Shown piece by piece: positions 4,315 through 26,057 of a stretch of 47,832 nucleotides of DNA. The notes beneath the pieces were generated by a model. It ran no database searches, was not told the origin of the DNA, and saw only the letters and a program-made list of their open reading frames with translations. A program made the translations under genes and the position numbers. Source of the DNA: Flavisolibacter sp. (GTDB lineage Bacteria; Bacteroidota; Bacteroidia; Chitinophagales; Chitinophagaceae); contig JAQBNG010000082.1 of the NCBI GenBank assembly GCA_028288675.1, positions 1-47,832 on the forward strand. The letters are read 5' to 3'. The first letter of the stretch is position 1. Every line of letters begins with the position of its first letter.

Positions 4315-7206
4315 ATGAAAAAATTAGCCCTGATCCTTTGTTGTCTTTCCACCTACTTTTTATTTACACAATATAGCAGCCGCTCTTCCGCCGATAAATG
4401 GGTAGACAGTGTTTTTTCCTCTTTTAGCAAAGAAGAAAAGATTGCGCAATTAATGGTGATTCGTGCCCATAGCAATTTAGGTCCCGACCATGTACAAAAG
4501 GTAACAGACCTGATCAAAAATTATAACGTTGGTGCCCTCTGTTTTTTCCAGGGCGGGCCGGTGCGGCAAGCTAATCTTACCAACTTTTATCAGTCTATTG
4601 CAAAAACACCACTGATGGTAACCATTGATGGCGAGTGGGGCTTAGGCATGAGGCTTGACAGTGTAATAAAATATCCTTATCAATTAACGCTTGGCGCACT
4701 CAGGGATGAAAAGCTGGTGTACGAAATGGGCCTTGCAGTAGGGGAGCAAATGAAGCGCATTGGCGTGCATGTAAACTATGCACCGGTGGTTGACATTAAT
4801 AACAATCCCGCCAATCCTGTTATTGGTTACCGCTCATTTGGCGAGGATAAATATAAAGTGGCCGCTATGGGTGTTGCTTATACCAAAGGCATGCAGGAAG
4901 CCGGCATTATGGCCTGCGCCAAACACTTTCCCGGACATGGAGATGTAGCAGTTGACTCGCATTACGATCTCCCTGTTATTTCCAAATCAAGGTCTGACCT
5001 GGATTCATTGGAGTTGTATCCCTTCAGGCAATTATTTAAAGCAAACGTAGGCAGTGTAATGATTGCGCATTTAGCTATCCCTGCACTTGATACTACGGCC
5101 AACAGGCCTACTTCACTTTCAAAAGCCAACGTTACAGACCTGCTTCGCGATGATTTGAACTACGACGGCCTGACGTTTACTGATGCCCTGGAGATGAAAG
5201 GCGTTACCAAATATTTTGGCGGCGGTGAGGCATCTGTAGAAGCATTAATCGCCGGCAATGATATGCTTTGCCTGCCTGAGAATGTAGGTGAGTCTATAGA
5301 TGCAATAAAAAAAGCCATCAAGGATAAACGATTAAAATGGGATGATATTGATAAAAAACTAAGGAAGGCATTATATGCAAAGTTCCAGTTAGGGCTAAGT
5401 AACCCGCAGGTAATTGATACTACTAATTTATTAGCTGATGTTAATAAAGCTACTGAATCAATTCGTTCAAAAGTGGCCGCTAATGTTATCACCGTAATGA
5501 GCAACAGCAAAAATTTACTGCCGTTTGTAAGCGGTGGTAAGGTGGCTTACGTTGGCATAGGCACAGCAACACTGAACACGTTTGGTGAAAGAGTAAAAAC
5601 CGATTTTGGAGCGGATACTTATTTGCTTACTTACAGGGATAGCATTCGAGCTATTTCTCTATTGGATAGTATAAAGAACGGGAAATACAATAAGGTGGTA
5701 ATCGGTTTACATAACTATTCAATTCGTACCGCCAATAATTATGGCATTTCAAAAGCAGTCATTGATTTAATAGACAGCTTACAGGGTTACAATGCGCTCA
5801 CTTTTGTTTTTGGAAATGTATATGCAGCACAAAATTTTTGTACCGCTTCTACATTGGTAGCCATGTATGAAGATGATGCCATTTTTCAGAATGCTGCGGC
5901 TGATTTTTTAACAGGCAGGATAGGTGCAAAAGGAACTGTGCCGGTTACAGTTTGCAATAGCAAATTTGGAAATGCTATAGCTGTAAGCCGCTTTACTCCT
6001 GTGGGAACAAGCTATGAATGGGCCGTAGTAGATTCTATAATGCAGGATGGTTTGGCAAAGAAAGCTTATCCCGGTGCGGTGGTGTTAGCGGTGCAGGGCG
6101 GTATAATAAAATACCACAAAGCCTTCGGCAATTTTGAATTTGATCCGGCTTCTATGCCGGTGAATTTGGAAAGTGTTTACGACCTGGCTTCTGTAACAAA
6201 AGTTTCCGCTACTACAGTTGCTGTAATGAAGCTATACGAGCAGGGCAAACTGGATTTAGACAATACTCTTGGCGACTATTTGCCTTATACTGTTGGCACA
6301 GATAAAGCGCCGTTAAAACTGAAAGATGTACTACTGCACCAGGCAGGATTAAATCCTTTCATTTCATTTTATAGAGAAACAATTGATGTGGCTACCGGGC
6401 AGCCTTCGCCGCTTTATTATAGAGATAAAATGGATAGTTTATTTACCATCCCTGTTGCCCGCAACTTATGGCTGCGCAAAGATTATAATGATAGTATGTT
6501 GAAGAAGATCGTGCAAAGCAAACTCACGGCTCATGGTAAGTATGTGTACAGCGATAATGATTTTATTTTATTGGGTAAAGTAGTGGAGAGCATAAGCGGA
6601 ATGCCACTTGACAACTTCGTGCAAAAAACGTTTTACAGGCCAATGGGAATGGCAAGTACAGGCTTTAAGCCATGGGAATATTTAGGTGTGGAAAGAGTAG
6701 TGCCTACAGAAAATGAAACCTATTTCCGTCGCCAGTTATTGCGTGGTTATGTGCATGATGAAGGCGCCGCGATGTTTGGAAATGTTTCAGGCCATGCCGG
6801 ATTATTTTCTAATGCTTACGATTTATCTATGCTCTATCAAATGCTGTTGAATGGCGGCAGCTTTAACGGTGAACGTTATTTAAAAAAAGAAACCATTGAT
6901 TTGTTTACGGCGTATCACAGCGATATTAGCCGCCGTGGTTATGGGTTTGACAAACCGGAGAAAGACAATGCAAGCCGTAAAGAACCATATCCATCTTCTT
7001 TAGCATCGAGTGAAACCTTTGGCCACACCGGGTTTACAGGCACCTGTGTTTGGGTAGATCCAAAATCGAATCTGGTGTATGTGTTTTTATCGAACCGCGT
7101 TTATAATACAAGGGCTAATAATTTACTGGGGCAGATGGGTATTAGAGGTAAAGTGCAGGATGCGATTTATAAGGCGTTGGGAGTAGAGAAGGTGAAGGGG
7201 CTTTAG
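4315..7206 (+). CDS. NagZ-like GH3 beta-N-acetylglucosaminidase fused to a beta-lactamase-fold serine hydrolase
   Basis: The 963-residue exported protein has a signal sequence at residues 1-26. Residues about 30-370 are a GH3 catalytic domain with the NagZ signature KHFPGHGDVAVDSH near residue 202 and the nucleophile aspartate in FTDALEM near 290. A GH3 C-terminal-like region follows to about 560. Residues about 565-960 are a serine beta-lactamase/class C PBP-fold domain with SxxK (SVTK) near residue 627, a YxN-like YSDND near 744 and HTG in FGHTGFTG near 904. The predicted role is release of GlcNAc from peptidoglycan fragments together with a peptidase or esterase activity in the periplasm. 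Similar fusions are common in Bacteroidota. Whether the hydrolase half cleaves D-Ala-D-Ala is not shown. Confidence 0.88.
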   Translation: MKKLALILCCLSTYFLFTQYSSRSSADKWVDSVFSSFSKEEKIAQLMVIRAHSNLGPDHVQKVTDLIKNYNVGALCFFQGGPVRQANLTNFYQSIAKTPLMVTIDGEWGLGMRLDSVIKYPYQLTLGALRDEKLVYEMGLAVGEQMKRIGVHVNYAPVVDINNNPANPVIGYRSFGEDKYKVAAMGVAYTKGMQEAGIMACAKHFPGHGDVAVDSHYDLPVISKSRSDLDSLELYPFRQLFKANVGSVMIAHLAIPALDTTANRPTSLSKANVTDLLRDDLNYDGLTFTDALEMKGVTKYFGGGEASVEALIAGNDMLCLPENVGESIDAIKKAIKDKRLKWDDIDKKLRKALYAKFQLGLSNPQVIDTTNLLADVNKATESIRSKVAANVITVMSNSKNLLPFVSGGKVAYVGIGTATLNTFGERVKTDFGADTYLLTYRDSIRAISLLDSIKNGKYNKVVIGLHNYSIRTANNYGISKAVIDLIDSLQGYNALTFVFGNVYAAQNFCTASTLVAMYEDDAIFQNAAADFLTGRIGAKGTVPVTVCNSKFGNAIAVSRFTPVGTSYEWAVVDSIMQDGLAKKAYPGAVVLAVQGGIIKYHKAFGNFEFDPASMPVNLESVYDLASVTKVSATTVAVMKLYEQGKLDLDNTLGDYLPYTVGTDKAPLKLKDVLLHQAGLNPFISFYRETIDVATGQPSPLYYRDKMDSLFTIPVARNLWLRKDYNDSMLKKIVQSKLTAHGKYVYSDNDFILLGKVVESISGMPLDNFVQKTFYRPMGMASTGFKPWEYLGVERVVPTENETYFRRQLLRGYVHDEGAAMFGNVSGHAGLFSNAYDLSMLYQMLLNGGSFNGERYLKKETIDLFTAYHSDISRRGYGFDKPEKDNASRKEPYPSSLASSETFGHTGFTGTCVWVDPKSNLVYVFLSNRVYNTRANNLLGQMGIRGKVQDAIYKALGVEKVKGL

Positions 7207-23693: not shown

Positions 23694-24407
23694 TTAAGGA
23701 AACATTGATTCAGCAAGGGCTACGCTTTCCGTACGGCCTACATCTATCACATTACTGGTGCTATGATTGTAGCCTGCGATCTTACTGTGTGTGGCAACTG
23801 TTAGAAAAACATCAATCAGCGAGAACTTACCTGTTTGCGTTATAGCGTCAAAAACAGATGGTTCAAAAATAGCGATACCACTGTAGGCTTTCTCAACATA
23901 TTCAACTGCAGGCACGGATATTTTTTCCTTTTGCGTATCGGTATTGCGCCAGCCGCACAACCGGTTGTACTTATCAAAAAGAAGATAGCGTTGCGTTTTA
24001 CGATCAGTAACAGCAAGTGTAATAACAGCTTCTTCCTGCCGGTGAGTAGCCAGGAAATCTGCGAGATTGGCGTTCGTTAAGATATCAACATTGATAGTTA
24101 TAAAAGTTTCGTTTTGTAAGTATTGTTTAGCCTTAAGCAATCCACCACCGGTCTCCAATACTTCTTCTGTTTCATCGCTGATGATGATGTTGCTGCCCCA
24201 TCCTTTATTATCTTCTATAACCTTTATTACCTGGCCGGCAAAGTGATGCACATTCACTACTACTTCTGAGATACCATATTGCTGCAGGTACTCGATGTTT
24301 CGTTGTAAAAGTGTTTTGCCGTTTACAACAGCCAATGCTTTAGGATGCTTGTCTGTCCAGGGTTTAAAGCGGGTGCCAAGACCAGCTGCGAAGATCATTG
24401 CTTTCAT
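23694..24407 (-). CDS. Sugar-1-phosphate nucleotidyltransferase, MurU-like
   Basis: NTP-transferase enzyme. The start chosen is the ATG at 24407 (237 residues), where the conserved MKAMIFAAGLGTRFKPWT begins; the longer frame adds 21 residues encoded by a dispersed repeat. Key features: the nucleotide-binding signature GLGTRFKPWTDKHPKAL, LETGGGLLKA near residue 90, and INVDILTN with the metal-binding Asp near 110. The sequence resembles Pseudomonas MurU (MurNAc-1-phosphate uridylyltransferase) more than RfbA/GlmU. The upstream gene on the same strand is an AmgK-like kinase, and amgK-murU is the known pair for cell-wall sugar recycling, which supports the assignment. A mannose-1-phosphate guanylyltransferase remains possible. 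Confidence 0.82.
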   Translation of the reverse strand: MKAMIFAAGLGTRFKPWTDKHPKALAVVNGKTLLQRNIEYLQQYGISEVVVNVHHFAGQVIKVIEDNKGWGSNIIISDETEEVLETGGGLLKAKQYLQNETFITINVDILTNANLADFLATHRQEEAVITLAVTDRKTQRYLLFDKYNRLCGWRNTDTQKEKISVPAVEYVEKAYSGIAIFEPSVFDAITQTGKFSLIDVFLTVATHSKIAGYNHSTSNVIDVGRTESVALAESMFP

Positions 24408-24592
24408 TCCCCCTGTCCCCCTGAAGGGGAGACTTAAATTTGAACCGTCTTTATTAGTTTCATCTTGCATACCTGTAAAACAAGTTTAGTAAAAATTTAG
24501 TTAGAAGATAAAGAGCTTACTCTTTAGAACTGATTGAAAAAGTAAAGCTCATTAACCTAAGTCTTCCCTTCAGGGGGAAAGGGGGAGTATCG
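24405..24592. repeat. Inverted-repeat element CCCCCTGTCCCCCTGAAGGGG between the kinase-fusion and MurU-like genes
   Basis: The left arm at about 24408-24432 reads CCCCCTGTCCCCCTGAAGGG. The right arm, about 24563-24589, read on the minus strand gives CTCCCCCTTTCCCCCTGAAG. The centre holds a second perfect hairpin, TAAAGAG-CTTA-CTCTTTA, near 24510-24527. The arms touch the ATG of the MurU-like gene and encode the last residues (ILPLSP) and the stop codon of the kinase fusion. A third, partial copy lies inside the kinase at 25420-25452. Confidence 0.8.
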
Positions 24593-26057
24593 GATTCTTC
24601 CAGCCTTTGGCCTCTTGCTCCCGGTGGCATAATTCAATTTTTACTTTGTACTTGTTGCGAAGATGTCTTGCAAGTGCATCAGCCGAATATACACTGCGAT
24701 GCTGCCCGCCGGTGCAACCGAAGTTTACGGTTAGCGAATCGAAGCCCCGTTTAATATATTCCTCTACCGAAATGTCAACAATATCAAAAACAGAATTTAA
24801 AAAGTCCTGTATGCGGGTCTGTCGTTCTAAATATTCCATTACCGGTTTATCGCGGCCATGAATTTCCTTATACTCCGCATGCCGTCCGGGGTTATCTATT
24901 CCGCGACAATCAAATACAAATCCGCCGCCATGAATGCTGGTATCTACCGGCACGCCTTTGCGATAAGAGAATGAACAAACTTTTACTACCAATGGAGTAT
25001 TTTCATCGGCTTGCACAGGCGTAAAACGTTGGATGATTTCTTCATCAATGCAAAGGCTCAATACCTTTTTAAATCCAGGTACCGATATTCCTATGCTATT
25101 GTTATCAAGAAAAGATTTCAGGTTTCTGAGTGCCTGCGGTATACTTGTAAGAAAATGCGCTTTACGCTCAAATAACCCGCGAAAACCATACGCCCCTAAT
25201 ACCTGCAGTAACCGTATCAAAACATAGCCATTGTATTGGCTTTTGAAAATATCACGGTCAATTTTATTATCAATGATAGTTTCAAAAGAATTCATGTATT
25301 CTTCCAGTAATCCTTCTTTCCACTCATCCGGCAGGTTGGCACGTGCCTGCCACAACATGCTGGCTACATCGTATTGCGGGGCACCTTTCATGCCACCCTG
25401 GTAATCTATAAAATTAACAGCATCCCCCTGCCCCCCTTCCAATGGGGAAACTAAAATATTCCGGCTTTGAAAATCGCGAAACATAAAATATTTGTACTCC
25501 GTATGCGTCAGGTACGAGCTAAGAGCATCAAAATCCTCCCCTAAGGCCTGCTTGTCGTAGGGCTTTTGCAGTGCATCTAAAAAATAATACTTGAAATAGA
25601 ACAAGTCAGCTTTGATAGCCTGGCGGCCAAACTCCTTGTTGGTTAAGCATTTTTCGTAATCCAATCCATCATCACCCAGCACCTGCAGCTTTGCTAACTG
25701 GTATAAGCTTTCCTTAAACAACTGGTATACTTCGGGCACAAAACCTTTTTCTTCTAAAATACTCATGAGCGATACATCGCCCAGGTCCTGCTGCAGGTAA
25801 ACGGTTTTATCGTCACTTACCGCAACCACTTCGGGTACCTGCAAACCTTTTTTATAAAACTGCTCCGAGAAATAAATGAAGCTATCGTTTTCAGGTATGT
25901 TTAATCCATGCGTACCAATAACCGTAGTTCCATCATTGTCATGTAAACGAAAGTATCTTCTGTCGCTGCCCGACTGTGGCAATACATCTACCAGCGCCGG
26001 CTCTCTCCCACTCCAGCTTTTATACAATTCCGATACGGCGTTTACTAATTCCTGCAT
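24570..26057 (-). CDS. AmgK-like sugar kinase (APH fold) fused to a RapZ C-terminal domain
   Basis: The 495-residue two-domain protein has an aminoglycoside-phosphotransferase-fold kinase at residues about 1-330: SGSDRRYFR nucleotide loop near 29, catalytic loop MFRDFQSRN near 191 (F for the usual H), and FIDYQGGMKG metal site near 214, most like the AmgK/anomeric MurNAc-GlcNAc kinases. Residues about 355-485 match the RapZ C-terminal domain: VKVCSFSYRKGVPVD, FVFDCRGIDNPGR, GRDKPVMEYLERQT and NFGCTGGQHRSVYSA near 455. In E. coli this domain binds glucosamine-6-phosphate and regulatory RNA; the RapZ N-terminal ATPase half is absent here. A 12-residue repeat-derived insertion (residues about 202-213) separates the two catalytic motifs. 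The MurU-like gene follows. Fusion role: inferred, cell-wall sugar recycling with product sensing. Confidence 0.88.
   Translation of the reverse strand: MQELVNAVSELYKSWSGREPALVDVLPQSGSDRRYFRLHDNDGTTVIGTHGLNIPENDSFIYFSEQFYKKGLQVPEVVAVSDDKTVYLQQDLGDVSLMSILEEKGFVPEVYQLFKESLYQLAKLQVLGDDGLDYEKCLTNKEFGRQAIKADLFYFKYYFLDALQKPYDKQALGEDFDALSSYLTHTEYKYFMFRDFQSRNILVSPLEGGQGDAVNFIDYQGGMKGAPQYDVASMLWQARANLPDEWKEGLLEEYMNSFETIIDNKIDRDIFKSQYNGYVLIRLLQVLGAYGFRGLFERKAHFLTSIPQALRNLKSFLDNNSIGISVPGFKKVLSLCIDEEIIQRFTPVQADENTPLVVKVCSFSYRKGVPVDTSIHGGGFVFDCRGIDNPGRHAEYKEIHGRDKPVMEYLERQTRIQDFLNSVFDIVDISVEEYIKRGFDSLTVNFGCTGGQHRSVYSADALARHLRNKYKVKIELCHREQEAKGWKNPILPLSP
25420..25452 (-). repeat. CCCCCTG-family repeat copy inserted in the kinase coding sequence
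   Basis: The plus strand reads TCCCCCTGCCCCCCTTCCAA followed by TGGGGAAACT, matching the arms of the element at 24405-24592. It is translated as SPLEGGQGDAVN between NILV and FIDYQGG of the kinase, where relatives have only a few residues. Confidence 0.7.

Follow-up and report, generated by a model that had tools for sequence, protein, structure and literature searches.

The locus described here raises the question of what the C-terminal domain of RapZ (RapZ_C) contributes when it is joined to a sugar kinase. In a stretch of 47,832 nucleotides from Flavisolibacter sp. (the window, meaning the whole length of DNA analysed), one gene encodes an AmgK-like kinase followed by RapZ_C, next to a MurU-like gene. 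The domain and its phosphate loop are shared with E. coli RapZ, an RNase adapter and GlcN6P sensor, and the initial annotation proposed that the fusion sets the recycling flux by sensing GlcN6P. The kinase and its neighbour recall a different setting, namely the Pseudomonas route in which AnmK makes MurNAc-6P, MupP removes the phosphate, and AmgK and MurU then act (PMC5371407).

The plus strand over positions 24570-26057 is rich in stops, and the real frame is the 495-residue one on the minus strand (Table 1). Pfam recognises in it RapZ_C (PF22740; 118.3 bits vs a cut-off of 27) and, over residues 31-254, APH (PF01636; 41.5 bits vs 23.2), the kinase occupying the place of the N-terminal P-loop ATPase of RapZ, which is absent. 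In NCBIfam, the RapZ equivalog reaches 108.5 bits against a cut-off of 244, with the match confined to the C-terminal part of the model, and two AmgK equivalogs reach 48.4 and 47.3 bits against cut-offs of 500 and 550; no other NCBIfam model was found at E up to 0.1, the AmgK models being the sole kinase models matched. The Pfam and NCBIfam results bear out the architecture given in the initial annotation, that is, an APH-fold kinase and RapZ_C in one frame that lacks the RapZ ATPase.

Table 1. Positions of the fusion gene, its functional elements and its neighbour in the window.
Feature	Position	Strand	Basis
AmgK-like kinase/RapZ_C fusion gene, 495 aa	24570..26057	minus	open frame and domain matches
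APH-fold kinase domain, residues about 1-320	25098..26057	minus	Pfam APH, alignment, Foldseek
Kinase motif RDFQSRN, residues 194-200	25458..25478	minus	alignment of fusions
Kinase motif FIDYQGG, residues 216-222	25392..25412	minus	alignment of fusions
RapZ_C domain, residues 357-481	24615..24989	minus	PF22740
Gly391-Arg392, sites of E. coli RapZ His190-Trp191	24882..24887	minus	alignment
C-X5-R-S phosphate loop, Cys448-Ser455 (E. coli C247-S254)	24693..24716	minus	alignment, model
MurU-like uridylyltransferase gene, downstream of fusion	23694..24470 as listed	minus	NCBIfam
Stretch between fusion and MurU-like gene, bounded by inverted repeat arms	24408..24586	no strand	repeat search

Within the kinase half, residues R194, D195, F196, R199 and N200 of the first motif and D218 of the second are identical in all 20 aligned fusions; D195, N200 and D218 are taken here to be the catalytic Asp/Asn residues, as in APH kinases. 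The AlphaFold model of the whole fusion has a mean pLDDT of 90.2 and a pTM of 0.75 (pLDDT 90.7 for the RapZ_C domain), and the best Foldseek match of the whole protein is 3csv, a putative APH (E 8.3e-14), followed by a corramycin phosphotransferase. Judged by its best family match and its murU neighbour, the N-terminal half would be an AmgK-type kinase, being closest to AmgK. The locus resembles the AnmK-MupP-AmgK-MurU route of Pseudomonas and Caulobacter in keeping AmgK-like and MurU-like genes together, although its kinase and its MurU-like protein both fall well short of the cut-offs of those two families.

The adjacent gene finds its best NCBIfam match in MurU (135.5 bits, below the cut-off of 250), and Met22 (24407), rather than the listed start, is probably where the conserved frame begins. 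Between the two genes lies an inverted repeat, with arms of 29 nt (24408-24436 and 24558-24586) that are 93% complementary, 121 nt apart and extend into both listed frames; 100 shuffles yielded no repeat of such quality. In L003, from a genome of the same genus, the MurU ATG overlaps the fusion stop (ATGA), so the insertion of a small mobile repeat may have separated two coupled genes in the window. At 4315-7206, the plus strand carries a further peptidoglycan enzyme of 963 aa, which combines a beta-lactamase-type domain with a GH3 domain that is NagZ-like and matches a beta-N-acetylhexosaminidase model, and at 35-1363 a Peptidase_S13 protein (DacB-like D-Ala-D-Ala carboxypeptidase; 143.7 bits).

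A kinase-based search of named genomes returned 583 loci, and the fusion is present in 77 of the best 80, which are close relatives of the window; among the three loci without an intact fusion, L091 and L130 end at a contig edge and L142 has Ns inside RapZ_C. In 61 of the same best 80, BLAST located a same-strand MurU-like gene no more than 600 bases away (59 downstream, 2 upstream). The kinase assignment, the MurU-like neighbour and, with them, the link to MurNAc salvage that the initial annotation had drawn are supported.

Among 395 Bacteroidota genomes, RapZ_C is present in 49, lying in fusion-length frames (476-524 aa) in 37 and forming a separate frame of 134-169 aa in 12, and none of the 49 has a RapZ_C frame of canonical RapZ length (284 residues in E. 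coli). Similarity searches detected the kinase in 47 of these genomes, its presence in G391 and G394 resting on frame length. In 8 of the 12 split genomes the kinase, RapZ_C and the MurU-like gene are consecutive, and in the other four RapZ_C lies away from the kinase: in G331 it adjoins the MurU-like gene, with the kinase at another place, and in G180, G271 and G306 it stands apart from the kinase and from MurU-like matches. A search for MurU-like genes with NF045761 gave matches in 6/6 genomes, all below the cut-off, a result that is weak because controls also match (14/14). In a tree of the kinases with 58 rows, representing 56 distinct genomes (two entered twice) and with three long branches unsure, the split state corresponds to 4 changes, at least 3 of which are forced by well supported branches. 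The kinase/RapZ_C fusion is recurrent in Bacteroidota, beyond chance.

Several further loci illustrate how these genes are arranged and labelled. Plasmid-collection records of Parabacteroides and Bacteroides label their copies 'RNase adapter RapZ'; the fusions of Parabacteroides distasonis (L158, 7998-9428) and Bacteroides finegoldii (L159, 7998-9428) bear this label alone, which hides the kinase half. In G271 and G306, which belong to one genus, the stand-alone RapZ_C adjoins a same-strand MFS transporter gene (L173, 16273-17993; L174, 10627-12441), with AnmK 10-16 kb away on the same contig; the MFS protein shows no BLASTP likeness to E. coli AmpG (E 0.94), and it matched MFS_1 alone in Pfam and no NCBIfam model. 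In family f16 (L027-L031), a distant AmgK-like kinase adjoins a MurU-like gene of 313-320 aa in genomes without RapZ_C, AnmK or MurQ, and this pair perhaps represents a minimal salvage of free MurNAc.

The ligand pocket of RapZ_C bears on the proposed sensing. Foldseek returned E. coli RapZ as the sole match of the domain at E up to 0.001 (8b0j_A, TM-score 0.80). In E. coli RapZ, residues H190, T248, G249, H252 and R253 hold sulfate or malonate, with C247 nearby (PMC5737377, PMC9841335), and replacement of H190 by Ala abolishes function (PMC9841335). Residues were compared between 17 Bacteroidota sequences chosen from the loci and 9 canonical RapZ proteins, a tenth, from Fusobacterium (L161), being compared separately. 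The loop residues C247, G249, G250, H252, R253 and S254 are identical in the 17 Bacteroidota and 10 canonical sequences, T248 is kept in the 17 and in 9 canonical ones (Ser in Fusobacterium), and D182, R184 and H276 (E. coli numbering) are unchanged throughout. Position 190, in contrast, is Gly in 17/17 Bacteroidota sequences vs His in 7/10 and Tyr in 3/10 canonical ones (Tyr in Fusobacterium), and position 191 is Arg/Lys in 17/17 vs Trp or Tyr in canonical RapZ; a GNGGG-type insertion before FDxR further distinguishes the Bacteroidota domain from that of E. coli RapZ. Four of the five pocket residues (T248, G249, H252, R253) are thus kept and H190 is lost in all 17. The initial annotation had made its sensing hypothesis depend on conservation of the GlcN6P-binding residues; this held for the phosphate loop, including its cysteine, and failed at H190.

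Residues linked to RNA binding differ as well: R238 is K/R in 9/9 canonical sequences and F/W/Y in 17/17 Bacteroidota ones, position 283 is K/R in 0/17 (K283 lost), position 282 in 8/17 and the K170 position in 15/17, a comparison that is only partial because K270 varies among canonical RapZ too. The phosphate loop is thus kept, while residues around the remainder of the ligand are altered, as are some of those contacting RNA in E. coli.

The genomic company of RapZ_C was assessed in the same 395 Bacteroidota genomes, with AnmK called at E 1e-30 (271 genomes) and MurQ at E 1e-40 (279 genomes), weak SIS-domain matches in G087 and G128 being scored as MurQ-negative, and with counts and P values that ignore the relatedness of genomes. 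Sixteen genomes have AnmK and lack MurQ, and RapZ_C is present in 15 of these, distributed over 6/7 families (f1, f4, f14, f32, f39, f47), compared with 34 of the remaining 379; in the exception, G381, MurQ-like matches are weak (at most 29.1 bits). In a first sample, AnmK occurs in 17/24 kinase genomes with RapZ_C, while kinase genomes without it have neither AnmK (0/43) nor MurQ (0/43); about 42 of the kinases without RapZ_C belong to a single family, and a very long branch leads to its sampled members. Among the 49 genomes with RapZ_C, both AnmK and MurQ are found in 16, and AnmK is absent from 18, of which 13 also lack MurQ. If RapZ_C makes MurNAc-6P usable, its presence in 15/16 AnmK-positive, MurQ-negative genomes and the absence of AnmK (0/43) from kinase genomes where RapZ_C is missing would be expected, whereas G381 and the RapZ_C genomes that lack AnmK or have MurQ as well speak against it. 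Because kinase and RapZ_C travel together, the profile cannot part one from the other and is stronger evidence for the pair than for the domain alone. MupP was discovered through a search for a phosphatase that accompanies AmgK and is lacking where MurQ occurs (PMC5371407), and the present comparison asks a similar question. E. coli K-12 deprived of murQ accumulates MurNAc-6P (PMC5371407). The HAD-type model TIGR01449 matches in 11/11 AnmK-positive, MurQ-negative genomes tested, always below the cut-off (best 153.6 bits vs 180), which makes a MupP analogue of HAD type possible, although the search is uninformative on MupP itself because controls match in 14/14 cases.

Known systems offer partial parallels. 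Caulobacter has AnmK and no MurQ (PMC13046382), like the Bacteroidota genomes just described. A Bacteroidota AmgK-MurU pair is known from Tannerella forsythia; E. coli carrying it takes up MurNAc probes and was used as a positive control (PMC13041923), so a Bacteroidota AmgK can work. In the cited account of the T. forsythia genome, an AnmK ortholog is not predicted (PMC7670621), and the MurNAc kinase MurK of this species (PMC5790795) is a possible alternative source of MurNAc-6P.

The preferred reading is that the fusion is a two-step enzyme of anabolic MurNAc salvage in which RapZ_C would most likely be a MurNAc-6P phosphatase, an assignment held tentatively and with somewhat less than even confidence; both enzyme activities and the substrate are inferred. 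As a cysteine-loop (C-X5-R) module acting on a 6-phosphorylated amino sugar, RapZ_C would strip the phosphate from MurNAc-6P (the MupP step) ahead of AmgK and MurU, so that the AnmK product becomes usable. The N-terminal AmgK-type anomeric kinase would convert MurNAc to MurNAc-alpha-1-P, which would be passed to the MurU-like enzyme of the adjacent gene and become UDP-MurNAc. Speculatively, the lactyl group could be accommodated by Gly in place of H190, its carboxylate being bound by Arg/Lys at 191.

The C-X5-R-S/T loop is a signature of cysteine phosphatases, and the RapZ_C loop, C-T-G-G-Q-H-R-S, fits C-X5-R-S. In the AlphaFold model of the domain its cysteine ends a strand and its arginine opens a helix, giving a strand-loop-helix arrangement like that of PTP, DSP, LMW-PTP and Cdc25 phosphatases, in which the C-X5-R loop connects the end of a strand to the beginning of a helix; in E. 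coli RapZ an anion occupies the same pocket (PMC5737377). The C247A and C247S variants of E. coli RapZ are both inactive, for which the authors suggest a catalytic -SH, and the crystal with GlcN6P likely contains a transformed product (PMC9841335). The essential cysteine may also be read as lost binding, since the C247 variants tested fail to hold GlmZ as well (PMC9841335). A wider proposition, rather doubtful at present, is that RapZ C-terminal domains are unrecognised C-X5-R cysteine sugar phosphatases, acting on MurNAc-6P in Bacteroidota and on GlcN6P in E. coli, with the ligand read by turnover; if so, E. coli RapZ would turn over GlcN6P, which would explain why C247 is essential and why the crystal shows an altered ligand. 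Searches of the open-licence PMC literature found no paper linking RapZ with AmgK, none joining RapZ and CX5R, and none on YvcJ with nitrophenyl phosphate; three mention RapZ together with N-acetylmuramic acid.

Two relationships were considered and not borne out. Kinship of RapZ_C to PTP-type phosphatases by fold was not found: of 415 Foldseek matches at E up to 10, the 50 that were listed include no PTP, DSP or Cdc25 fold, and the next match after RapZ is an APS kinase (E 0.14); the likeness of the loops may be convergence. RapZ_C does not belong to the MupP family either: it matches RapZ only, whereas Pseudomonas MupP is an unrelated HAD enzyme, and the domain, joined to the kinase in Bacteroidota, is at most an analogue.

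The sensor itself, in which RapZ_C would bind GlcN6P, MurNAc-6P or another sugar phosphate and switch the kinase, in cis where fused and as a subunit where split, is possible, if on balance unlikely. GlcN6P is a tight ligand of the E. coli domain (KD 10 nM; PMC7073468), the Bacteroidota domains retain T248, G249, H252 and R253, and fused small domains usually have such a role; but the change of H190 to Gly and of 191 to Arg/Lys in every sequence compared, the invariant loop cysteine and the four genomes with RapZ_C off the kinase argue against it, and the use of MurNAc-6P by AnmK-positive, MurQ-negative genomes is left unexplained. With H190 lost, a GlcN6P sensor is displaced as first choice and is less likely than a cysteine-loop module acting on a 6-phosphorylated amino sugar. 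Stand-alone RapZ_C proteins, which in four genomes are encoded away from the kinase, suit an enzyme or free subunit no less well than a built-in sensor, and the earlier idea that sensing sets the recycling flux is weakened on both counts.

A catalytic RapZ_C with another substrate or reaction, such as another sugar phosphate or the opening of anhMurNAc in lineages without AnmK, is improbable: it would suit the 18/49 RapZ_C genomes that lack AnmK, as well as T. forsythia, which has no predicted AnmK, still grows, if poorly, on anhMurNAc by a route described as unexplored (PMC7670621), but the 15/16 count points to MurNAc-6P and the present data reveal no other reaction. It is more improbable that RapZ_C merely dimerises or stabilises the kinase, with the loop as a structural relic, since the phosphate loop is strictly conserved and a separate RapZ_C gene persists off the kinase in 4/12 split genomes, even though the E. 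coli C-terminal domain dimerises unaided (PMC7073468). An RNA-binding adapter tuning the expression of glmS or mur genes is the reading least to be expected, and very unlikely: RNA binding by E. coli RapZ resides in the homologous domain (PMC9841335), but the aromatic replacement of R238 and the lack of K/R at 283 in all Bacteroidota sequences compared, with K/R at 282 in fewer than half, speak against such a role, and an Rfam scan of the window matched no family.

Taken at its present strength, the evidence from genome comparison suggests that RapZ_C in the Bacteroidota kinase fusion may be no sensor but an enzyme whose substrate is a phosphorylated sugar of the cell wall. If the MurNAc-6P phosphatase assignment is true, the phosphatase of MurNAc salvage would be identified for many Bacteroidota, and a function would be assigned to the Parabacteroides and Bacteroides proteins that now carry an RNase adapter label. 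The open remark on E. coli RapZ, with its essential thiol and altered ligand, would then become directly testable as the question of whether the domain is an enzyme. As the salvage route bypasses MurA, the fosfomycin target (PMC5371407), the finding, if true, would also be relevant to cell-wall physiology across the Bacteroidota phylum.
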